From: Alphaproteobacteria bacterium
GTDB lineage: Bacteria > Pseudomonadota > Alphaproteobacteria > Rs-D84
Assembly (NCBI GenBank): GCA_015062525.1
Contig: SUUM01000005.1
Location: 1-64,000 of the forward strand
Direction: 5' to 3'
Length of the DNA: 64,000 bases
The first letter of the stretch is position 1. The number at the start of each line of letters is the position of its first letter. The position numbers and the translations under genes were made by a program. Shown one piece after another: positions 149-52,185 of the stretch. The notes below the pieces were generated by a model. The model ran no database searches. It was given only the letters and a program-made list of their open reading frames with translations, and had not been told where the DNA came from.

Positions 149-1162
149 ATGCCGAAATCCGCCAAAAACTTAGCAGGACAAAATACTACTGCACACAAAC
201 AATGTGGCGGTTATTCATGTGATGCAGCCATTCCGCAAATGGATGCGGATTGTGATATTGCCGGCATTGATATTATTGAACGCAACCTGCCCAAATCATT
301 GTTAGAAATTCTGTTAAAGGATATGAGCACAGGCCGTAATATCCTGTGGGCATGTGATGGATATGCACAATATGGTAATGCATACAAATCAGGCTGTGAA
401 ATTACATACAAAGCCATTGCAGGCAAAAAGAACACTATGTTGATTCAGCCACGTATTCTGAAAGCAAAATGTTATCAAAAAGAACGCACCCGTACCCATG
501 CCGAGGTTTTTACACCATCCTGGATATGCAACGAAATGAATAATTGCTGTGACGAAGAATGGTTTGGCCGCAAGGACGTATTTAACACAATGAAATCAGA
601 CCATACATGGACTGCGACAACTGGACCTATATTTCCGGCTGGCTCAAAAAAATGGCATGCGTACGTATTGTCCAAACGCCTAGAAATTACCTGTGGCGAG
701 GCACCATACCTAGTCTCGCCATACGATACAACAACCGGAAAAATAATCCCCATTGAACAACGTATTGGACAGCTGGACCGTAAACTGCGTGTCATTAATG
801 AAAATATGAATTCAGAACGCTATTGGTTTGAATGGGTGCTAAAAGCATTTCAAAGCACATACGGATATGAATATCAAGGTGACAACTTGTTATTGGCACG
901 CGAAAACCTGTTGTACACATTTATAGATAATTACAAATTCAAATTCGGCAAAGAGCCGAACATTCAGAAACAAAAGAAAATCGCGCAAATTATTGCCTGG
1001 AACATATGGCAAATGGATGGGCTTAGCGATTGTGCCCCATTCAGCTCAGAAACCAATGATTTTTACCAGATGGGTTTGTTTGGCAACGCCCCAATTCCAT
1101 GTCGGGTTATCGACTGGGAAAACAATCTGCAGTTGTGCTTCAAAGATTTAAAAAAGGACTAA
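149..1162 (+). CDS. Restriction-modification methylase subunit, N-terminal half (motifs X and I)
   Basis: ORF 131..1162; probable start ATG 149. Contains 'AEVFTPSWICNE' (motif X-like) and 'LEITCGEAPYLVS' (motif I-like), followed directly by an NPPY-containing ORF. Confidence 0.65.
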   Translation: MPKSAKNLAGQNTTAHKQCGGYSCDAAIPQMDADCDIAGIDIIERNLPKSLLEILLKDMSTGRNILWACDGYAQYGNAYKSGCEITYKAIAGKKNTMLIQPRILKAKCYQKERTRTHAEVFTPSWICNEMNNCCDEEWFGRKDVFNTMKSDHTWTATTGPIFPAGSKKWHAYVLSKRLEITCGEAPYLVSPYDTTTGKIIPIEQRIGQLDRKLRVINENMNSERYWFEWVLKAFQSTYGYEYQGDNLLLARENLLYTFIDNYKFKFGKEPNIQKQKKIAQIIAWNIWQMDGLSDCAPFSSETNDFYQMGLFGNAPIPCRVIDWENNLQLCFKDLKKD

Positions 1163-1164
1163 CG

Positions 1165-2151
1165 ATGAAATTTGATTTTTGCATAGGAAATCCACCATAT
1201 CAGGAATTGGTCGCAAATAATTCCGGTTCTATATCTCAAGCAAATCCTGTTTATCATTATTTTGTTCAACAGGCTATTTCTATAACAACTGGGAGCGTAT
1301 GTATGATTACCCCAAGCCTGTGGATGACAAGTGGAACAGGGTTAGATGAATTTAGAAATTTTATGTTAACAAAAAATCACATTTCATTTATGTGTGATTT
1401 TGAGAATGCATCAGATGTTTTTCCAAATATATCACTAGCAGGTGGCGTGTCCTATTTTATATATGATGACAGGGTGACAGCAGCTACAAAATATACATAT
1501 ATTGATTCTATCAACGCTGAAACGTCTGTTAGAGATATGGCAAAACATGGAACTTCATTTTTTATCAGAGACCCAAAAGCCGATAAAATTTTAGAAAAAA
1601 TTGGAGCGTATGAGCCGAATTTTGAAAGTTTTATGGGAGTAGTTTCTACTTACTCACCATTTGCTAATGGTAAGGTAGGTAATTATAAGCAGTTGTTTAA
1701 GTCGAGTCCGGATAAAAATTCAATAAAAATTTACAGATTTTCAAGAAACAAAGAAGATGGTAAATACGCATATATTAACAGAAATGAAATAATTTCTCAT
1801 GCGGACTGGATTGATAAACATAAAATTATGGTATCGAAAGCGGGTGAAATATCTGCTCGCTTTAATGGTCTGCCTTTTTATGCAGGGCCAGGAACTGCAT
1901 GCAACGAAACCTACCTGGTTGTTGGACCTTTTAAAGATAAGAAAACTTGTGAAAATGTTTTATCTTATATGAATACAAATTTGTATAAGTATTTAATATC
2001 ACAAATTAAGAAATCTCAGAATGCAGCTCGTAATGTTTATAAATTTGTTCCGATGCAGGATTTTTCAACTTCGTGGTCTGACAAAGATTTATATAAAAAA
2101 TATAAATTGACAGAAGAAGAAATTGCGTACATAGAATCAAAAACGAATTAA
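1165..2151 (+). CDS. Eco57I-type N6-adenine methylase, NPPY-containing half
   Basis: Begins MKFDFCIGNPPYQELV (motif IV NPPY at the very N-terminus); start ATG 1165, 2 nt after the stop of the preceding ORF. Confidence 0.75.
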   Translation: MKFDFCIGNPPYQELVANNSGSISQANPVYHYFVQQAISITTGSVCMITPSLWMTSGTGLDEFRNFMLTKNHISFMCDFENASDVFPNISLAGGVSYFIYDDRVTAATKYTYIDSINAETSVRDMAKHGTSFFIRDPKADKILEKIGAYEPNFESFMGVVSTYSPFANGKVGNYKQLFKSSPDKNSIKIYRFSRNKEDGKYAYINRNEIISHADWIDKHKIMVSKAGEISARFNGLPFYAGPGTACNETYLVVGPFKDKKTCENVLSYMNTNLYKYLISQIKKSQNAARNVYKFVPMQDFSTSWSDKDLYKKYKLTEEEIAYIESKTN

Positions 2152-2163
2152 AGTGAGGGCATA

Positions 2164-5100
2164 ATGAAAAAGCTGAATATCAATACCAGTAAAAAAGTTG
2201 TGCCGATGTGTTATGCATACACAACTCCCGAAATTGCACGCCACCATGGGTGGACCAAGATTGGTTTTACGGAACAAGATGTAGAAACCCGTATTCGCCA
2301 ACAAACCCAAACGGCCGATATAAAATATAAACTGGAATGGATGGGAACTGCAATTTATGACGATGGTACCGGCGACACATTCCGTGACACAGATTTTCAT
2401 GCATATCTGCAAAAACATGATATTGAACGTGGAACACATACATATTTGGATGCCAATGGCCAGGAACGCACTGAAAAAACAGAGTGGTTTCATGTAGAGC
2501 CAGATGCCTCCCACAATCATTTTATAAAGTTCAAATCAAATCGTGGAATTTTGGAATCGCTTGGGTCAATAGAATATAAATTACGTGATGAACAAAATAC
2601 GGCGGTTGGTAATACAAAATCATACTTTAATGCCAATCAAGATGATGAACCTGAATTCTTGTGGAATGCAAAACCCAGATTTGGCAAAACATTATCTACG
2701 TATGATTTGTGCAAACAACTGGGGGCACAAAAGGTGTTGATTGTCACGAACAGGCCGGCGATTGCAAATTCTTGGTATGATGATTATGTGAAATTTTTGG
2801 GCACAGAATCAGGTTATTACTTTGTTAGCCAGGTTGACGCATTGAAAAATAAAGCCTATGTTTTGACACGTGACCAATATACACATCACCTGGCAGACCC
2901 AAATCACAAAGGGTGTATTGAATTTGTGTCATTACAGGATATGAAGGGCTCAATCTACTTTGGTGGCAAATACGATAAATTGCGTGAAGTTGCCGACCTG
3001 GAATGGGATTTGCTGGTCATTGACGAGGCCCACGAAGGCGTAGATACATACAAAACAGACGTTGCGTTTGACCATATAAAACGCAGATTTACATTACACT
3101 TATCTGGCACACCGTTCAAAGCATTGGCGAATAATAAGTTTGATGAAAAAGCAATATTTAACTGGACCTATGCAGACGAGCAAAAAGCAAAACGTAATTG
3201 GTATGAAAATCAAGACAATCTAGAAATGGAAAACCCATACGAAAGTTTGCCCCAGCTAAATCTGTACACGTACCAAATGTCAGAAATCATACGCGATAAA
3301 TTGCAAACGGGTGCAGACTTCAATGCAGATGGCGAAACAGAAGAATACGCATTTGACCTGAACGAGTTCTTTATCACAAAATCAGACGGGAGTTTCAAAT
3401 ACGAGGATGCAGTTGATAAATTCTTGGATGCTTTGGTAAGTCAGACCAAGTTTCCATTTTCTACACCGGAATTGCGTGATGAACTAAAGCATACATTCTG
3501 GTTATTAAATCGTGTCGACAGTGCCAAAGCATTGGCCAAGAAATTGAAGGAACACCCCATATTTGGTGAAGGACAGTATGAAATTGTCTTAGCGGCAGGA
3601 AACGGCAAAATTGATGACGAAGAAGAAAACCAGAAGGCGCTGGACAAAGTAAGAAAAGCCATCTCAGAACACGACAAAACAATAACGCTATCTGTTGGTC
3701 AATTAACCACAGGAATAACTGTTCCAGAATGGACCGCTGTATTAATGCTAAGCAATGTTCAAAGTCCGGCGTTGTACATGCAGGCGGCATTTCGTGCACA
3801 AAATCCATGTCTGTTCAAGGTTGGTAACGAGTTTTACAGAAAAGAAAACGCCTATGTGTTTGACTTTGACCCTGCCAGAACCCTGAATATAGTAGAACAG
3901 TTTGCAAACAACCTTAGCCCTGATACTACATCCGGTAAAGGCGATATTGTAGTACGCAAAAAGCACGTGTATGAATTGTTAAACTTCTTCCCTGTCTATG
4001 GCGAGGACGAAGATGGCGAAATGATAACACTGGATGCAGAAAAGGTTTTATCAATTCCACGCAAGATACACTCGCAGGAGGTTGTTAGACGTGGATTTAT
4101 GAGCAATTTCCTATTCCAAAACATAAGCAATATCTTCAATGCACCGGCTGAAATAATTGATGTTATAAAACAACTAGAACCAACCAAAGAACAAATATTA
4201 GTCACACCAGAAACCAAGAATGACCTAGCAATTAACGAAGATGGTGAAGTTGATATTCCACAAGACATAATTATAGGTCAAGCCCAGGAAGTATTTGGCG
4301 ATAAAATTTATGGTCTTAGCCAGGATTTGATAGATAAGGTTGAAGAAATAACCGAACAGACACCGGCGCAGCCAGATGAACTGGAAAAATATCGTGAGGC
4401 CTTCAAGGAAGTTACAACATCTCTGATAGAAACCGCCAAAGAAGAATACGGCAATGAAATTAGCAAGGCAGCACAGCAAAACTTGGCTCGCAACATAGCA
4501 GCAGATGCCAACACGATGCTGACCAAAGAGTTTTATGACTATCAAATTGAAGATAAAAAGAACGAATTGGAACGTCAAAAAGAAATTGAACAAGCGACCA
4601 CCCAGAAAGAAATAGACAAAATAAACAACATATACGACACACGAAAAAAGGAAATACATACAAATTTTGTTGAGAAGATAAAAGAAAAAGTTGACGATGT
4701 TGTGCAAGGTGCCGGTGAAAAAATCGTAAAAACCATCGAAACAGAAAAACGCAAGAAAGAAAAAGAAAGTATAGAAGAATCTGTTCGTGCTCATTTACGT
4801 GGATTCTCAAGAACGATACCTTCTTTCTTAATGGCGTATGGCGATGAAAATACGACCTTGGAAAACTTTGACCAAATCATACCGGACGAGGTATTTAAGG
4901 ACGTAACAAGTATTTCGTTGGACCAATTTAGATTCTTACGTGATGGTGGCGACTATATCGATGCAGAAACAGGACAAACAAAGCACTTCGAGGGACATCT
5001 GTTTGACCCTGTGGTTTTTAATGATTCTGTCAAAGAATTCTTGAGCCTTAAACAACGGTTGGCGAACTATTTTGATGAAAGCAGCAAGGAAGATATATTT

Positions 5101-5517
5101 GACTATATTCCACCACAGAAAACCAATCAGATATTTACCCCAAAAAAGGTAGTAAAAGAAATGGTTGATTATCTGGAGCAGGAAAATCCCGGTTGCTTTG
5201 ACGACCCGGAAAAGACCTTTATAGACCTGTATATGAAATCTGGGATGTATATAACAGAAATCGTAAAACGCCTGTATCAAAGCAAAAAAATGCAAAAACT
5301 GTATCCAAACGACAAGGATAGATTAAAGCATATTTTTGAACATCAGGTATATGGTCTGGCCCCAACGGAAATTATATACAAGATTGCTACTGAGTATATT
5401 TTGGGCTTTGATAACACCATTGATATAAAGAAACATAACTTTAGACAGTTCGATGCGTTACCAGTAGCCCAGAATGGAACATTGGAGCAGGAATTAGACA
5501 AAGTGTTTGGCGATTAG
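2164..5517 (+). CDS. Restriction enzyme: N-terminal GIY-YIG/T5orf172-like nuclease, DEAH helicase, C-terminal methylase-like region
   Basis: 1117 aa; N-term 'YAYTTPEIARHHGWTKIGFTEQDVETRIRQQ'; 'NAKPRFGKT' Walker A-like; 'LLVIDEAHEG'; C-term 'NQIFTPKKVVKEMVDYLE...TFIDLYMKSGMYITEIVKRLY'. Confidence 0.75.
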   Translation: MKKLNINTSKKVVPMCYAYTTPEIARHHGWTKIGFTEQDVETRIRQQTQTADIKYKLEWMGTAIYDDGTGDTFRDTDFHAYLQKHDIERGTHTYLDANGQERTEKTEWFHVEPDASHNHFIKFKSNRGILESLGSIEYKLRDEQNTAVGNTKSYFNANQDDEPEFLWNAKPRFGKTLSTYDLCKQLGAQKVLIVTNRPAIANSWYDDYVKFLGTESGYYFVSQVDALKNKAYVLTRDQYTHHLADPNHKGCIEFVSLQDMKGSIYFGGKYDKLREVADLEWDLLVIDEAHEGVDTYKTDVAFDHIKRRFTLHLSGTPFKALANNKFDEKAIFNWTYADEQKAKRNWYENQDNLEMENPYESLPQLNLYTYQMSEIIRDKLQTGADFNADGETEEYAFDLNEFFITKSDGSFKYEDAVDKFLDALVSQTKFPFSTPELRDELKHTFWLLNRVDSAKALAKKLKEHPIFGEGQYEIVLAAGNGKIDDEEENQKALDKVRKAISEHDKTITLSVGQLTTGITVPEWTAVLMLSNVQSPALYMQAAFRAQNPCLFKVGNEFYRKENAYVFDFDPARTLNIVEQFANNLSPDTTSGKGDIVVRKKHVYELLNFFPVYGEDEDGEMITLDAEKVLSIPRKIHSQEVVRRGFMSNFLFQNISNIFNAPAEIIDVIKQLEPTKEQILVTPETKNDLAINEDGEVDIPQDIIIGQAQEVFGDKIYGLSQDLIDKVEEITEQTPAQPDELEKYREAFKEVTTSLIETAKEEYGNEISKAAQQNLARNIAADANTMLTKEFYDYQIEDKKNELERQKEIEQATTQKEIDKINNIYDTRKKEIHTNFVEKIKEKVDDVVQGAGEKIVKTIETEKRKKEKESIEESVRAHLRGFSRTIPSFLMAYGDENTTLENFDQIIPDEVFKDVTSISLDQFRFLRDGGDYIDAETGQTKHFEGHLFDPVVFNDSVKEFLSLKQRLANYFDESSKEDIFDYIPPQKTNQIFTPKKVVKEMVDYLEQENPGCFDDPEKTFIDLYMKSGMYITEIVKRLYQSKKMQKLYPNDKDRLKHIFEHQVYGLAPTEIIYKIATEYILGFDNTIDIKKHNFRQFDALPVAQNGTLEQELDKVFGD

Positions 5518-5533
5518 CAAAAGGAAATAATAG

Positions 5534-5950
5534 ATGTCTGACAAAACATACGAAAACGAAGAGTTGTTTTTGAAAAAATTGGCCCAAGCATACACAGAAT
5601 ATAACGCAGAACACATCTTGCCATTTTTAGCGGATGATTTTGGTTATTCTTCGTTTTGGGTTGCTGCGCCAGACCTAAGCAAAGAAAAATACACCGATTA
5701 TATTGTTGGAAAGTTGGCGACCATGAAAAAGCTAAATACCATCAACAAGTTTTTTATGATGTATGAGCAAGGAACAGGAAAACCGTTTTTATTAATTGGT
5801 TCTAAAACGCCACAAGGAGATTTTGGTTGCTTTGATGTAACTGCGGATGCTGATGGAAAAATAGCAAAGCTAGCGATTATGCCGTCTTCGTTTTATCATC
5901 TTGGATATAAAAACAAAGAAGATTTTGATAAGTTTCTTGCTTCTTTGTAA
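5534..5950 (+). CDS. Small protein, possible SnoaL/NTF2-like fold
   Basis: 138 aa ORF with good spacing after the helicase; overall pattern resembles NTF2-like proteins (weak). Confidence 0.5.
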   Translation: MSDKTYENEELFLKKLAQAYTEYNAEHILPFLADDFGYSSFWVAAPDLSKEKYTDYIVGKLATMKKLNTINKFFMMYEQGTGKPFLLIGSKTPQGDFGCFDVTADADGKIAKLAIMPSSFYHLGYKNKEDFDKFLASL

Positions 5951-5959
5951 ATAATCGGC

Positions 5960-7630
5960 TTAGACATAAATTTGAAACCCGTCATCATTGTTTATCGCTT
6001 TGGTGACGTTTTTTAGCCGTTGGATTGTGATTTGGTGAATGAATTTGAATCCAGCTTTGGCTTCAATGCTACCTGCTTGTACTTCTTCGGGTAGTTGACA
6101 TAGGATGAAACTTCTTGTGCCACCATCTAGCTTGTTTTGAACTATTACAGCCTCGGCCGTAGTTGCAGAACCGGCAAAAGCATCAAGAACAACCACATTC
6201 TTCTTTCCAATCCATTTTAGTAAATCTCGGATAAGCTTGACTGGTTTCTTGCCGGCACTAAAAGGCACGCCACCTTCCTTCTGTATACGACTTTTTTCTG
6301 AGTAATATCCCTTCCAGATGTCGCCACGAATTACAGAATTGGCCAGTACACCATTATCGTCTGTCTGCAACTTATTATAAAAGGGCTTTAAATGATACAC
6401 AGTGCCGTCTTGCGTTTTCTCTAATAATTTGCCGTCATATTCAAAAACAACGCCTACAGGGGCATTAAAATCGCTTTTAACTGGGTTTTGATATGGTTTG
6501 GTTCTTTTGTACAAGTTTTTTGACAGAGTTTGGTACATATAGTTTTCAAAATCAGTGTCGTAATCCATAAGTTTAGCGATGTTCTCGTTTTTGATGGCTA
6601 GTTTGTGTGATTTGAACCGCTGGACTATATCAGGCTGCTGTTTTAGGAAGTCAATCAATGGTGTTTTATTCAATTTTTCATCCAAGACAATATTAAAACC
6701 AGATGTAAACTTGTCGTCAGCCGGGTCGTATAATCTTTGCAAATAGTTGACTTGTGACTTATCCTTGGCATAAACGAGCAAATACCCCTTTGTGCTAGGT
6801 AGCTTATATTGTGTATAACCAGAAACAAGGCCTGCTGGGATTGCCATTTCTATGACAATGTTATTTACTATGTTTTCTCTACCGAAGACCTCGTCCATAA
6901 GCAACTTTACATAGGCGACTTCGTGTTCGCTGACTGATAGTGCTAATAAGCCGGTGGATGACAGTAGTTTTTGTACCAATTTCAAGCGTGGCAGCAGCAT
7001 GCATAGCAAATCGCAAGTGCCATCAAAACTATCACTGTATGCCTGTTTAAGTCGAGTGCTAGGCATATTATACGGTATGTCAAAATACGCCAAATCGACT
7101 GTTTCTTGGTATTTGGACATCATGGCCTTCATGCCGTCTAGATTGTCACCAATGTATAATCTGTTGCTTGAATTTCTGTTTGCCAGCTTTTCGTTGTGAT
7201 ATTTATATGGTTTAAATCGTTTGGTACTGGGTGTGTCTGATAGTTTGTCTGCAAAATCTCGACCGTTAAATTGCAGGAACAAGCCATTTTTGTTCTGGGT
7301 GCGTGTAGTATTGTTTTCAAAATCCCCCAGAGAGCCAACCAGTGCATCGTACTTATAACATTGGCCCCATTTTTTATTGTGATTTATGGCGGATATTATG
7401 CCGATTCCTTCTAGTTTCTTTATGGTATTTGTGACTGTTGGGCGGGTTAAACCGGTCTTTTGTACCAAGGTTGTAATATCTAGCTTGGGGCTTTTGCAAA
7501 ATTCATCCAAGATACGCATGGCAGACTTTTTGCACTTGCCTATATTTTCTACTTTTTTGCGGTCGGCTGCAATTTGCTCTTGGTTGAAATTATCCAAGGT
7601 TTGACGAAGATGTTTTTTATTGTTTTTCAT
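5960..7630 (-). CDS. Site-specific DNA methyltransferase (type III Mod-like, beta class) with N-terminal winged-helix
   Basis: wHTH 'LTRPTVTNTIKKLEGIGII'; 'AYFDIPYN' at motif IV position; 'VVLDAFAGSATTAEAV' motif I; 'GGVPFSAGKKPVKLI'. Confidence 0.75.
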   Translation of the reverse strand: MKNNKKHLRQTLDNFNQEQIAADRKKVENIGKCKKSAMRILDEFCKSPKLDITTLVQKTGLTRPTVTNTIKKLEGIGIISAINHNKKWGQCYKYDALVGSLGDFENNTTRTQNKNGLFLQFNGRDFADKLSDTPSTKRFKPYKYHNEKLANRNSSNRLYIGDNLDGMKAMMSKYQETVDLAYFDIPYNMPSTRLKQAYSDSFDGTCDLLCMLLPRLKLVQKLLSSTGLLALSVSEHEVAYVKLLMDEVFGRENIVNNIVIEMAIPAGLVSGYTQYKLPSTKGYLLVYAKDKSQVNYLQRLYDPADDKFTSGFNIVLDEKLNKTPLIDFLKQQPDIVQRFKSHKLAIKNENIAKLMDYDTDFENYMYQTLSKNLYKRTKPYQNPVKSDFNAPVGVVFEYDGKLLEKTQDGTVYHLKPFYNKLQTDDNGVLANSVIRGDIWKGYYSEKSRIQKEGGVPFSAGKKPVKLIRDLLKWIGKKNVVVLDAFAGSATTAEAVIVQNKLDGGTRSFILCQLPEEVQAGSIEAKAGFKFIHQITIQRLKNVTKAINNDDGFQIYV

Positions 7631-9261: not shown

Positions 9262-9450
9262 TGTATTTTTTTTGAAAAAAATGAAATGCAGGTAAAAATA
9301 GTCTAATTTAAACTTTACTTGTTTTTGACATAGTGATATACTCTGTTGGAACTTGAAACTGATACGAAAAGTGATACGATTTCAAGGGCAAGAAGATTTA
9401 GGGTAATACAGAAAAGCTAGATTTCCGGCACTTTTGGAATAATGTGACGG

Positions 9451-9740
9451 GCTCCCCTGTGTCCCCACCAGAAATAAAGAAACGCCTAATGGCGTTTTTT
9501 TATTTCTGTGGACACGGGACGAAGAACCCGTAAGAGGGTTCGACAATGAGTAAAAGAGCCAAGCCTTGCGCAGGCGATTTGTCAGGAATGCCCCACAGCC
9601 GGTGCTGTGCACCGTGCGAGGGAATCCCTGTGTCCCCACCAAAAATTCAACGACCGCTTGCCGGTCGTTTAATTTTTGTATGGGACCCGGACGAGAACCC
9701 AAAAAGGGTTCGGAACGCCAGTTGGTGAAAACAAGCATAT
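9451..9740 (+). repeat. Two tandem tRNA-like acceptor ends with associated hairpins
   Basis: ctcccctgtgtccccacca (to 9470) and aatccctgtgtccccacca (to 9641), each followed by a long hairpin and then 'gggac..gga cga(a)gaaccc...gggttcg'. Confidence 0.55.
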
Positions 9741-9912
9741 GCGCCGTTTGAACCTTACGTAGTGAATGGGGCCCATCGCGCCGACGCGGCGCAGATGGGG
9801 ATTTACAGTCTGTTTTTTGACACGGAATCATAGTATGTTTTTACCCCATCGCTTTTGTTGGACAAAAAAATTATGCGCCCATTTTGGGTACATATTGTTA
9901 TATGATTTTTTA

Positions 9913-10004
9913 TTGAAAAAATTCGTATTTTATGGTACAATACACTTATTCAGCAGACGACATTTGGTCGTCTTTTTTATTACCCGCAACCGCGGGTGTT
10001 TTTT
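9913..10004 (+). promoter_or_regulatory. Promoter plus twin-hairpin leader (copy A)
   Basis: TTGAAA (9913-9918), 17 nt, TACAAT (9936-9941); hairpin GACGAC/GTCGTC (9956-9972)+T-run; hairpin ACCCGC/GCGGGT (9982-9997)+T6. Nearly identical to copy B at 51978-52080. Confidence 0.85.
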
Positions 10005-10024
10005 ATTTAGCAAAAGGAGTTTTT

Positions 10025-10522
10025 ATGAGTGATAAAGGTATCGAGTGGTTGAAAGGGTTAGAAGGTTCGGTCAAGGTTAATGGAAAACACGTTATATACG
10101 ATGATGCTACGAAGAAACCAGTAAATCCAAACGAGCCTTTACCAAAAGGTGCAACAATTGGCTATGGGCATTTGGTAAAGCCGGGTGAAGATTTTACAAA
10201 CGGAATTACAGAACGGCAGGCGATTGCATTATTGCGTTCTGATATAGCCACGGCAGAACGCGCTGTGCAAGATAATATTACAGCACAAATATCGCAAGCC
10301 CAATATGATGCCCTGGTATCTTTGGCGTATAATATTGGTGCAAGTGGTTTCAAAAATTCTACGGTTGTGAAATATATAAACAATCCAGATTTTCATAGCT
10401 CTGTTTATTCAGATTTGGAATCCGCATGGAAAGCCTGGAATCGGTCCCAGGGTAAAGTATCAAATGGTTTAATTAACCGCAGGCAAAATGAATGGAACCT
10501 GTATAAACGCGGTATATATTGA
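10025..10522 (+). CDS. GH24 (phage-type) lysozyme / endolysin
   Basis: 'GIEWLKGLEGSVKVNGKHVIYDD...ATIGYGHLVKPGEDFTNGIT...QYDALVSLAYNIG' typical GH24; start ATG 10025. Confidence 0.85.
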   Translation: MSDKGIEWLKGLEGSVKVNGKHVIYDDATKKPVNPNEPLPKGATIGYGHLVKPGEDFTNGITERQAIALLRSDIATAERAVQDNITAQISQAQYDALVSLAYNIGASGFKNSTVVKYINNPDFHSSVYSDLESAWKAWNRSQGKVSNGLINRRQNEWNLYKRGIY

Positions 10523-10822: not shown

Positions 10823-11059
10823 GTGGAACATCGGTTGTTATGGAGAGCTATTGAAAAACTAGCAATCAGTCATGGCTTAACGTGTTCAGGGCTGGCAAAG
10901 TTATGCGGTTTGGACGCAACTACGTTTAATAAAAGCAAACAGTTTTCATCAGATGGCACACCACGTTGGCCATCGTGTAATACAATTAGCAAACTTATTC
11001 GGGCAACCAATATAACAATTCTAGATTTCGCGAAATTGTGCACACCTGAATCAGAATAA
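10823..11059 (+). CDS. Short HTH regulator (phage-repressor-like N-terminal domain only)
   Basis: 'HGLTCSGLAKLCGLDATTFNKSKQFSSDGTPRWPSCNTISKLIRATN'; GTG start with gggagag upstream. Confidence 0.6.
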   Translation: MEHRLLWRAIEKLAISHGLTCSGLAKLCGLDATTFNKSKQFSSDGTPRWPSCNTISKLIRATNITILDFAKLCTPESE

Positions 11060-49838: not shown

Positions 49839-50777
49839 ATGAAGAAGTTTTTCAAAACACTTTGTCTGTTATGTCTGCTGGGATGTGGTTATGATATACC
49901 CAAAAAGACCAACCACACTGTATGTGGCGATATTTATTCCCTTGATTGGTCAAAAAAACAGGAAGCGATAGACATATATAATGCATGTTTAGCAACCTTG
50001 GACACAAACGATAAAAAATATACAGATTCTATGTTGTATCTGGCATATATCTATTTGTCCGACAATGAATACCAAGACATTGAATATGCCAATCAACTGA
50101 TTCACAACGCAATGCAGATAATGGCCGCTGATTGCGATGGTGCGCATGGTACATATGATAATTTTTGTTATTTTGAATATTTCAAAGACGAGGTTTCTTG
50201 GCCAGAATATTTTAAGAATTTTGATGATGCCAAACATTTATTTCACATGACCTTGCCTTGTGTTCACATAGATATGATAAAGGAAAATAAAAGCGCACTT
50301 GAATTGATAGAGGACTATTTCGGCAGTTCTCGTGATGCTGCTATTGCCGGTATTTGCGACCCCTTTAATCCATACGAGATAACACAATTAAGACGCTTTG
50401 TCCGGTCTCCTGGTTTTGACGAACTGTCAAAAATAAATCCAGAACCATCCATTAATGGCACAATGAGTTTCGCATTCAGTACATCAAATTATCATGATAT
50501 GATAGAGATGTTGACTTATCCTGTGTCTTTTTTTCAAGATAAGACACATGATGATTTATTCATAAAACTCAATTTTGAAGAAAAAAAGTTTTTTTATGCA
50601 AAAGATTTGCTATCAGAACTGGCTAAATATGACGACCTGGTTTTGATATATGATGCAATGGCAGACAATATCAAAAAATACTATATTGATGCATTACATA
50701 TGTCAGAACAAGATGCGGTCAAATATGCTAAAATGACCGCATCCACCCTGATTTTGCACAAAATATTCTATCGTTAG
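49839..50777 (+). CDS. Predicted lipoprotein, unknown function
   Basis: 'MKKFFKTLCLLCLLGCGYD' lipobox; 3' end overlaps the convergent gene by 4 nt. Confidence 0.75.
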   Translation: MKKFFKTLCLLCLLGCGYDIPKKTNHTVCGDIYSLDWSKKQEAIDIYNACLATLDTNDKKYTDSMLYLAYIYLSDNEYQDIEYANQLIHNAMQIMAADCDGAHGTYDNFCYFEYFKDEVSWPEYFKNFDDAKHLFHMTLPCVHIDMIKENKSALELIEDYFGSSRDAAIAGICDPFNPYEITQLRRFVRSPGFDELSKINPEPSINGTMSFAFSTSNYHDMIEMLTYPVSFFQDKTHDDLFIKLNFEEKKFFYAKDLLSELAKYDDLVLIYDAMADNIKKYYIDALHMSEQDAVKYAKMTASTLILHKIFYR

Positions 50778-51967
50778 TTTGCATTTAAAAACATTCGTTT
50801 TGTCCATTCACGACGAGCTTTTTGTACATCTTTTCTTTCAGACGCTTCCTTTGCGGCGGTTTTCCAGTCTTTATTTTTGATGGCTTCAAATAACTTTGGC
50901 CAATACCGTTCAGAAAACCTGTTGTTTCCCATATTAAATTGCATATCTAACAATGCTTGCTGTACAGATATCGGCATATCTATAAAATTCATTATTTTTT
51001 TGTTTAATTCATTGTATGCAATTTCCAGTTGTTGGTTAAACTGGTTATAAATTTGATTTGGCGATATTTGTATGTGTGCATAATCATATTCTCTAAAAGT
51101 ACCATTATTTATTTCTGATACCATTTTTGAATGAATATTTTGTTTTTCGGCTTCGGTTAATTCCGTACCAGTGTTTGTATTTATAATATCTAACTTTAAA
51201 AAATCGTTTAGTTTATGTATATTTTGACCGATTCCAATTGTTAAATAACCTTTGGAATCTGTGTATGGGCTTTTTCTGATTCCTTCGTGCGCCATTACAT
51301 CATTCTTAAATTTATCAGTTAATATATTTTTCATATCACTTGCCTTTTGTGTTTCTGGTTTTTGACCTTTGTAAACTTTGCTGTCTATTTTCTTGCCGGC
51401 CTCATTCAATTCTACTTCTTCAACCCAACAACGACAGTTTGGATGAACGGGGATATCTGATATACATTCTTCGGTTTCATAGACCGTCCCATCATTCCCC
51501 ACGCAGTCGTCGCATGTATTTTCGCCATGCTCGCTGTGCCATATCCATATCTTGGGCGTAATTTTGAATTCTGGAATATTCAAAACAAAGGTTTCCAGAC
51601 TGCGCTTTGATACATGACCGCCCGGCATTAAAACTTTGACCAGTATCGGCGTGCCAGGAACGACGTATTCTTCGATATCAAAATTAAAACCGATTGTTTC
51701 AAAGTAATCACCGTATGTGTCCAGGACATCTGCTTCTGCCTCGCTTTTATCAGACTCGAACTCCGTTTCTATTTCATGTTGTGCATTATAAAACTGCTCC
51801 AATGTCATATCATATTCTGGGCGCATCATACGACCCGTGGCATCAAACGCCACGGTTCCCGGATACAGAATATTCATATACTTGGTCGCACGTTTATATG
51901 TTTCGCTGTTTTTATCACCGTATTCAGGCGACGATATCAGTTCTTGTAAAAATTTTGGTGTTTGCAT
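50774..51967 (-). CDS. MuF-like phage head-morphogenesis domain fused to a lysozyme-like domain
   Basis: 'WIWHSEHGENTCDDCVGNDGTVYETEECISDIPVHPNCRCWVEEV' (MuF/gp7 C-x2-C...HPNCRC) then 'DVMAHEGIRKSPYTDSKGYLTIGIGQNIH...VQQALLDMQFNMG' (lysozyme-like). Start ATG 51967, RBS gggggaag. Confidence 0.75.
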   Translation of the reverse strand: MQTPKFLQELISSPEYGDKNSETYKRATKYMNILYPGTVAFDATGRMMRPEYDMTLEQFYNAQHEIETEFESDKSEAEADVLDTYGDYFETIGFNFDIEEYVVPGTPILVKVLMPGGHVSKRSLETFVLNIPEFKITPKIWIWHSEHGENTCDDCVGNDGTVYETEECISDIPVHPNCRCWVEEVELNEAGKKIDSKVYKGQKPETQKASDMKNILTDKFKNDVMAHEGIRKSPYTDSKGYLTIGIGQNIHKLNDFLKLDIINTNTGTELTEAEKQNIHSKMVSEINNGTFREYDYAHIQISPNQIYNQFNQQLEIAYNELNKKIMNFIDMPISVQQALLDMQFNMGNNRFSERYWPKLFEAIKNKDWKTAAKEASERKDVQKARREWTKRMFLNAN

Positions 51968-51977
51968 TTTCTTCCCC

Positions 51978-52080
51978 CATAAAAAAAACACCCGCGTGTG
52001 CGGGTAATAAAAAAGACGACCAAATGTCGTCCGCTGAATATGCGCATTATATCATAAAATACGAATTTTTTCAATAAAAA
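51978..52080 (-). promoter_or_regulatory. Promoter plus twin-hairpin leader (copy B)
   Basis: Minus strand: TTGAAA (52074-52069), 17 nt, TATAAT (52051-52046); hairpins at 52032-52014 and 52005-51990; ~90% identical to copy A. Confidence 0.85.
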
Positions 52081-52107
52081 ACACCCCGTTGGGGTGCCTT
52101 TTTATAA

Positions 52108-52185
52108 TGGGGCGGATAACCGGACTCGAACCGGCGACATTTGGTACCACAAACCAACGCTCTAACCAACTGAGCTATATCCGCC
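52108..52185 (-). tRNA. tRNA-His(GTG)
   Basis: Reverse complement G-GCGGATATAGCTCAGTTGGTTAGAGCGTTGGTTTGTGGTACCAA...GGTTCGAGTCCGGTTATCCGC-C-CCA; anticodon GTG, encoded G-1:C73. Confidence 0.95.

Follow-up and report, generated by a model that had tools for sequence, protein, structure and literature searches.

The window analysed here, a 64-kb stretch of DNA (positions 1 to 64,000 of contig SUUM01000005.1) from an alphaproteobacterium of the order Rs-D84, carries two copies of a leader in which a promoter is followed by two terminator-like hairpins, each copy standing before a gene with a lysozyme domain. This leader is probably the shared control of a dispersed regulon encoding a domesticated T7-like particle of Rs-D84, which resembles a gene transfer agent (GTA) and is gated by twin terminators. 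The existence of the regulon is strongly supported. Antitermination at the twin terminators would be the means of its expression, and the regulon may serve the production of particles that carry host DNA or effectors.

The twin-terminator leader and its conservation

The two copies, here called A (9906-10001, plus strand) and B (51986-52081, minus strand), show 92% identity across 99 bp (E=1.4e-35), and the proteins encoded behind them are no copies of each other (BLASTP E=0.71), both as had been proposed in an earlier sequence-only reading of this DNA. The near-consensus sigma70 promoter described there was read in both copies. In copy A the -35 box TTGAAA (9913-9918) and the -10 box TACAAT (9936-9941) are separated by a spacer of 17 nt, and in copy B, on the minus strand, the same spacing separates TTGAAA (52074-52069) from TATAAT (52051-52046). 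The two successive hairpins proposed between promoter and start codon were also recovered, each leader folding as exactly two hairpins (-21.1 kcal/mol, z=-5.0; equalled by 0 of 200 shuffles) with the start codon 20-30 nt beyond the second T-tailed hairpin. An architecture detector run on the window made one call per strand, namely copies A and B, against 0.0 calls per shuffled window (20 shuffles). The elements and the genes that they precede are:

9913..9941, plus strand: sigma70-type promoter of copy A, TTGAAA-N17-TACAAT (from sequence and from conservation among 92 distinct leaders)
9956..9978, plus strand: terminator hairpin 1 of copy A, GACGAC-ATTTG-GTCGTC followed by T6 (sequence, RNA fold, covariation)
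9982..10004, plus strand: terminator hairpin 2 of copy A, ACCCGC-AACC-GCGGGT followed by G and T6 (sequence, RNA fold, covariation)
10025..10522, plus strand: 165-aa GH24 lysozyme or endolysin behind copy A (PF00959, 2.7e-30; phrog_7 endolysin, 1.8e-32)
52046..52074, minus strand: sigma70-type promoter of copy B, TTGAAA-N17-TATAAT (sequence)
52009..52031, minus strand: terminator hairpin 1 of copy B (sequence, RNA fold)
51981..52005, minus strand: terminator hairpin 2 of copy B (sequence, RNA fold)
50774..51967, minus strand: 397-aa fusion of a MuF motif (C..C...HPNCRC) and a GH24 lysozyme behind copy B (PF00959, 3.3e-9; PF04233, 7.8e-4; phrogs head morphogenesis and endolysin)

DNA searches found relatives of the leader within the same genus (candidate genus Enterousia). 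A covariance model reached copies in 144 of 156 genomes of the genus, and a second model, made from 66 copies, in 156 of the 201 genomes of the order; among the matching genomes listed, those outside the genus all belong to family f1. In Enterousia and its relatives the leader is always in sense orientation relative to the downstream gene, and in virtually all copies both terminators follow the promoter. Among 94 leaders with an open reading frame (ORF), the ATG stands 7-33 nt beyond hairpin 2 in nearly all. As this distance is too short to hold a further promoter, expression would need read-through of the terminators. The 92 distinct leaders share a conserved TTG and an extended -10 (TNTG-N-TATAAT), the latter and a T-rich spacer being the only conserved parts between -35 and -10. 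In three species (L144, L162 and L075) a closely related insert (ATATCACCCACAAAATTTTGCAATTTTGCGGGGCCCGAT) occupies the loop of hairpin 2.

The stems vary widely yet stay paired (GACGAC/GTCGTC, GACGGC/GCCGTC, GGCGAC/GTCGCC, GGCAAC/GTTGCC and others). In an alignment of 66 leaders 96.1% of the cells are paired, with 86 double changes and a covariation of 0.408 versus 0.157 in shuffled alignments (0 of 500). This alignment was fitted to the structure and an independent set was therefore sought in the leaders of the head operon, which were taken as the stretch preceding the cell-wall hydrolase gene and located by protein homology only. These leaders contain TTGAC-N18-TANNNT and two T-tailed hairpins in 64 of 66 species, versus 7 of 660 shuffles. 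Moreover, they are 90.7% paired (at most 80.8% when shuffled), contain 99 double changes (at most 54) and have a covariation above that of all 300 shuffles. A scan for the architecture that was blind to the leader sequence, covering 80 host loci around the capsid gene (1.4 Mb; 2.83 Mb on both strands), gave 53 matches in 52 loci, all of which are the head-operon leader and none of which stands before a host gene. The same layout was found at two loci of family f4, and the leader architecture of the head operon reaches at least a second family.

The regulon and the T7-like particle genes

A regulon defined by a conserved control element, as the sequence-only reading had suggested, is borne out by the constant orientation of the leader, by its position just before the start codon and by the restricted set of genes that it precedes. 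The search of the genome and its relatives with a covariance model, with listing of the downstream genes, returned a restricted, phage-like set, and a generic dispersed repeat before unrelated genes did not emerge from the covariance, detector or blind scans. The view of it as a regulon of lytic enzymes stood only in part: lysozymes and other peptidoglycan cutters are included, but the description is too narrow, as the head operon, tail-fibre-like genes and methyltransferases belong to it as well.

Few gene families were found behind the 94 leaders, namely phage-like late or cargo families and a family of 216-aa proteins. The MuF-motif proteins are fused to GH24, GH108 or a Tlde1-type L,D-transpeptidase, and other leaders precede an NNNPGNL/MuF protein, a lone GH24 or a lone GH108. 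Tail-fibre-like proteins (Mtd_N PF18454, 4.4e-17; the match to the T7 fibre N-terminus is weak) and EcoRI-type and C5 methyltransferases complete the set. Covariance matches without a detector call, inspected by hand, lie mostly before the same families. The MuF assignment is to be read with its scores: the 397-aa fusion of the window has a weak match (20.6 bits, under the 29.6 cut-off of PF04233), one case elsewhere is above the Pfam cut-off (41.2 bits) and the others are under it, the MuF motif being seen as well. The genome of the window (0.99 Mb) contains about four further members beside the two window copies:

C8:105138: leader before the head operon (hydrolase/scaffold/capsid)
C8:151424: leader before an EcoRI-type methyltransferase gene
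C2:11358: leader before a tail-fibre gene
C10:29908: leader before a tail-fibre gene

Two weak covariance matches in this genome were rejected, one (C9:109919) being a promoter without terminators and the other (C4:58901) looking like chance.

One relative has a T7-like portal and terminase near a gene of these families. The particle cluster adjoins the host genes birA and dnaB, and its genes match a cell-wall hydrolase (PF07486), the T7 scaffold (PF05396, 5.6e-8), a capsid (PF19821, 2.1e-71), a portal (PF12236, 4.8e-79) and tail-tube and tail proteins. The terminase large subunit is encoded by two genes, one for the ATPase (PF03237, 1.1e-4) and one for the nuclease (PF22530, PF17289); wherever both turned up, in all six families, they form distinct ORFs (for instance L168:4237-5157 and L168:8415-9062, both on the minus strand). 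In the genus, dnaB, a tandem helix-turn-helix (HTH) gene (335 aa) and a 215-aa gene lie between the two halves on the opposite strand, and a read-through head transcript would therefore be antisense through dnaB. Between the scaffold and capsid genes is encoded a Lys/Ala/Pro-rich, histone-like repetitive protein (MAF..K..PAAKKAPAKK; L171:3668-4129 on the plus strand and L168:13562-14023 on the minus strand).

The named records place the group in gut Alphaproteobacteria, including Candidatus Enterousia. Rs-D84 is an order with reduced genomes (PMC12306168), and those seen here are about 1 Mb in size. Of 191 genomes of the order, 173 carry the capsid gene (121 of the 126 of high quality), nearly always as a single copy and in six families. 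Its identity to the G082 query is 79-91% within the genus and 64-72% across families. The gene order is identical in 52 of 52 full-length named loci, and the median ratio of non-synonymous to synonymous substitutions (dN/dS) of the particle genes, 0.07-0.28, indicates purifying selection; the stop counts in that output are probably alignment overhangs. In the 20-kb clusters examined, no replication or integration genes were recognised. Genes of phage origin that are single-copy, constrained and, judging by gene order and identity, vertically inherited point to a GTA-like element rather than to prophages. The component genes appear to be dispersed over the host genome, the scattered ones being assigned to the particle by their shared leader. 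In viral contigs neither the leader pattern nor the MuF-GH24 protein found a match, so that no known phage is seen to contain these units.

Each type of peptidoglycan cutter is accompanied by its own small secreted, lipoprotein or membrane family (loci L032, L050, L112, L022, L061, L010, L036 and L007). The partner encoded 3' of MuF-GH108 is a 165-aa secreted protein, those of MuF-Tlde1 are membrane proteins of 105-128 aa, several GH24 types have a lipoprotein of about 105 aa and the NNNPGNL type has a lipoprotein of 166 aa. From sequence these cutter-specific partners look like effector-immunity pairs. The 216-aa family (ISDITCMKEKFCIAG), without a family match, is followed by a 140-148-aa gene (TIGFSGK..FLDVLNA; L055, L057, L089, L090, L108 and L165). 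The leader-bearing tail-fibre-like genes adjoin glycosyltransferase or other surface-glycan-type genes (L093, L130, L076, L096, L128 and L163), as if the fibres were matched to surface glycans. Where the leader precedes a methyltransferase gene (L052, L072, L153 and L170), the next gene encodes a secreted protein of 206-342 aa, and these proteins are related in sequence.

Further features of the window lie close to the two leader copies:

49839..50777, plus strand: 312-aa lipoprotein-like gene, convergent to the MuF-GH24 gene (ORF with lipobox-like start MKKFFKTLCLLCLLGCG)
52108..52184, minus strand: tRNA-His immediately 5' of copy B, at a site where such cassettes are repeatedly inserted in the genus

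The 312-aa protein had no family match in Pfam-type or phrogs profile searches and is a possible partner of MuF-GH24. On the 3' side of the GH24 gene a small HTH protein with a GTG start is encoded (10823-11059, plus strand), relatives of which occur near particle genes (L112, L171). Upstream of copy A, at 9440-9840, are repeated structured segments with tRNA 3'-end-like termini (CCCTGTGTCCCCACC), which resemble remnants of attachment sites or a small RNA-like repeat and occur in relatives too. A low-GC restriction-modification island with Eco57I-type methylase, ResIII helicase-like and N6_N4 methylase genes extends over 1099-7630.

Proposed opening of the gates

In the proposed mechanism transcription from the sigma70 promoter would run into two consecutive intrinsic terminators ahead of the first codon, which would keep the genes silent in most cells. 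On switching on, RNA polymerase would pass both terminators, most likely by means of a trans-acting antiterminator or polymerase-modifying factor analogous to GafZ for the Caulobacter GTA or Q for phage lambda. GafZ is presumably a member of the DUF6456 family. The scattered genes, that is the head operon, tail fibres, MuF-linked and free peptidoglycan cutters and methyltransferases, would thereby be co-expressed. In the simplest model a single factor opens all gates. We infer termination in vivo, regulated read-through and a factor common to all loci.

Several points weigh against this explanation. All the genomes are metagenome-assembled, and the case is drawn from their sequences. Some members have a single hairpin, for example the 201-aa MuF genes of L065, L095, L142, L143 and L159, and the leader at C10:29908 has one clear hairpin only. 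No strongly conserved element was found in the -35/-10 spacer of the 92 distinct leaders beyond the extended -10. Moreover, an antiterminator gene was not identified in a search that covered GafZ-like DUF6456 proteins, NusG families and the 215-aa cluster protein (P215), with no search for Q homologues beyond these. DUF6456 was absent from 14 of 14 genomes at E<=1, with a positive Caulobacter control, and a GafZ-like protein was rejected as candidate. A NusG paralogue of the LoaP/RfaH type was likewise rejected, as one NusG was present in 14 of 15 genomes, none was found in the other and no second copy was seen in any. P215 is predicted to be all-helical (pLDDT, the predicted local distance difference test, 83), has no PDB match at E<=0.001 and was found next to the cluster in family f1 but not near it in f2-f6.

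These negative searches favour a passive, bet-hedging gate, in which a strong promoter and two leaky terminators allow a tiny constant or stochastic read-through, with no dedicated antiterminator and few cells expressing the genes. Serial terminators damp multiplicatively, and the DNA of the spacer and after the promoter is little conserved apart from the extended -10, as such a gate would permit. Nevertheless the pair of terminators is kept at dozens of separate loci with compensatory changes in the stems, which suits a jointly opened gate better, and known GTA and lambdoid systems of comparable layout use antiterminators (PMC11150451 for GTA). We regard a passive gate as unlikely, although it is the most serious of the alternatives.

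The leader might instead be conserved not for regulation but as a homology arm, the near-identity coming from cassettes of mobile morons that were recently copied or recombined at tRNA 3' ends. A full tRNA lies at most 200 nt upstream of 16 of the 94 elements (tRNA-His in eight of them), a tRNA 3'-end remnant was recognised by motif at 13 more, and at the tRNA-His site differing cargo genes occur behind the same leader. The location of copies at tRNA ends suggests cassette exchange, which may be why copies A and B are 92% identical. Such copying could account for that pair but not for the whole class, because leaders elsewhere, including that of the non-mobile head operon, have diverged with structure and T-tracts kept. 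Conservation of structure only between unlinked copies refutes the strong form of this explanation, and as an account of the leader in general it is improbable.

A role of the hairpins as mere insulators, shielding toxic lysis genes from upstream transcription, would suit the lysozymes and other potentially harmful products, and a terminator-like hairpin is often found upstream of the leader promoter too. However, an insulator belongs upstream of the gene's own promoter, whereas here the conserved promoter precedes both terminators, and a second promoter would be needed in the 7-33 nt before the start codon; this role is very improbable. A small-RNA gene acting in trans, with RNAs of some 30-60 nt ending at hairpin 1 or 2 as a promoter and terminator alone would yield and the downstream gene served by occasional read-through, is hardly credible given stem and loop sequences free to vary with pairing kept, which a fixed-target RNA would not tolerate, and a nearly constant place before the ATG of a restricted gene set.

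The regulated twin-terminator gate is thus preferred. A bolder proposal built on it, which we put forward tentatively and with some doubt, is that the dispersed T7-like particle, switched by a new antiterminator, carries exchangeable MuF-linked peptidoglycan-cutting effectors with matching immunity genes besides or instead of DNA, and so forms a combined gene-transfer and kin-selective weapon system.

Relation to known systems

As a sequence tag, the leader allows the scattered components of a cryptic particle to be located in genomes of Enterousia and its relatives, and it makes membership among GTA genes a search question. The model predicts that a single factor opens many gates at once. If it is true, a whole order of gut bacteria with reduced genomes has conserved a GTA-like element of podovirus type, and one switch also controls a repertoire of toxins and immunity proteins. 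Among the papers searched none joined GTAs with Rs-D84, and to our knowledge no such element has been reported in this order.

In phage lambda the region pR'-tR'-S-R-Rz combines a constitutive promoter, a promoter-proximal terminator and late genes including lysozyme, and is opened by Q. There one gate serves one long operon, whereas in Rs-D84 many short units are each gated and by two terminators. The particle genes of Rs-D84 are T7-like, unlike those of the Caulobacter GTA (CcGTA), which we take to be an RcGTA-type particle. CcGTA is controlled by GafZ antitermination, with GafY and IHF, and the GafZ-binding element lies inside the promoter (PMC11150451). Both systems comprise alphaproteobacterial GTA genes transcribed from a sigma70 promoter, and in both a strong terminator within the transcript is passed by antitermination, in Rs-D84 putatively so, and CcGTA too has accessory genes elsewhere in the genome (PMC11150451). 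GafZ, however, acts at one promoter only, with the terminator after the first gene (PMC11150451), whereas in Rs-D84 the dispersed loci nearly all have a promoter of their own, with two terminators before the first codon, and no DUF6456 gene was found.

By its description, FpGTA is likewise a podovirus-type GTA-like element of a gut bacterium. Its host belongs to the Firmicutes, whereas the Rs-D84 element is order-wide and has a split terminase and a dispersed regulon; the parts of the FpGTA source available report no gut alphaproteobacterial element. Among phages, the likeness is to T7-like and Pelagibacter podoviruses: the capsid of phage EXVC031P is 45% identical over 99%, and the portal, scaffold and tail-tube families are shared. 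Unlike these phages, the Rs-D84 genes are chromosomal, nearly always single-copy, vertically kept and flanked by birA and dnaB. With MuF polymorphic toxins the Rs-D84 proteins share the MuF motif, exchangeable C-terminal domains and type-specific small partner genes downstream. They differ in that the C-termini are peptidoglycan cutters (GH24, GH108 and Tlde1-type L,D-transpeptidase), no portal gene is adjacent and the MuF scores often fall under the Pfam cut-off. Each component has known counterparts; what is new, as far as could be checked, is their combination, together with the recurrence of twin-terminator gates and conservation throughout the order.
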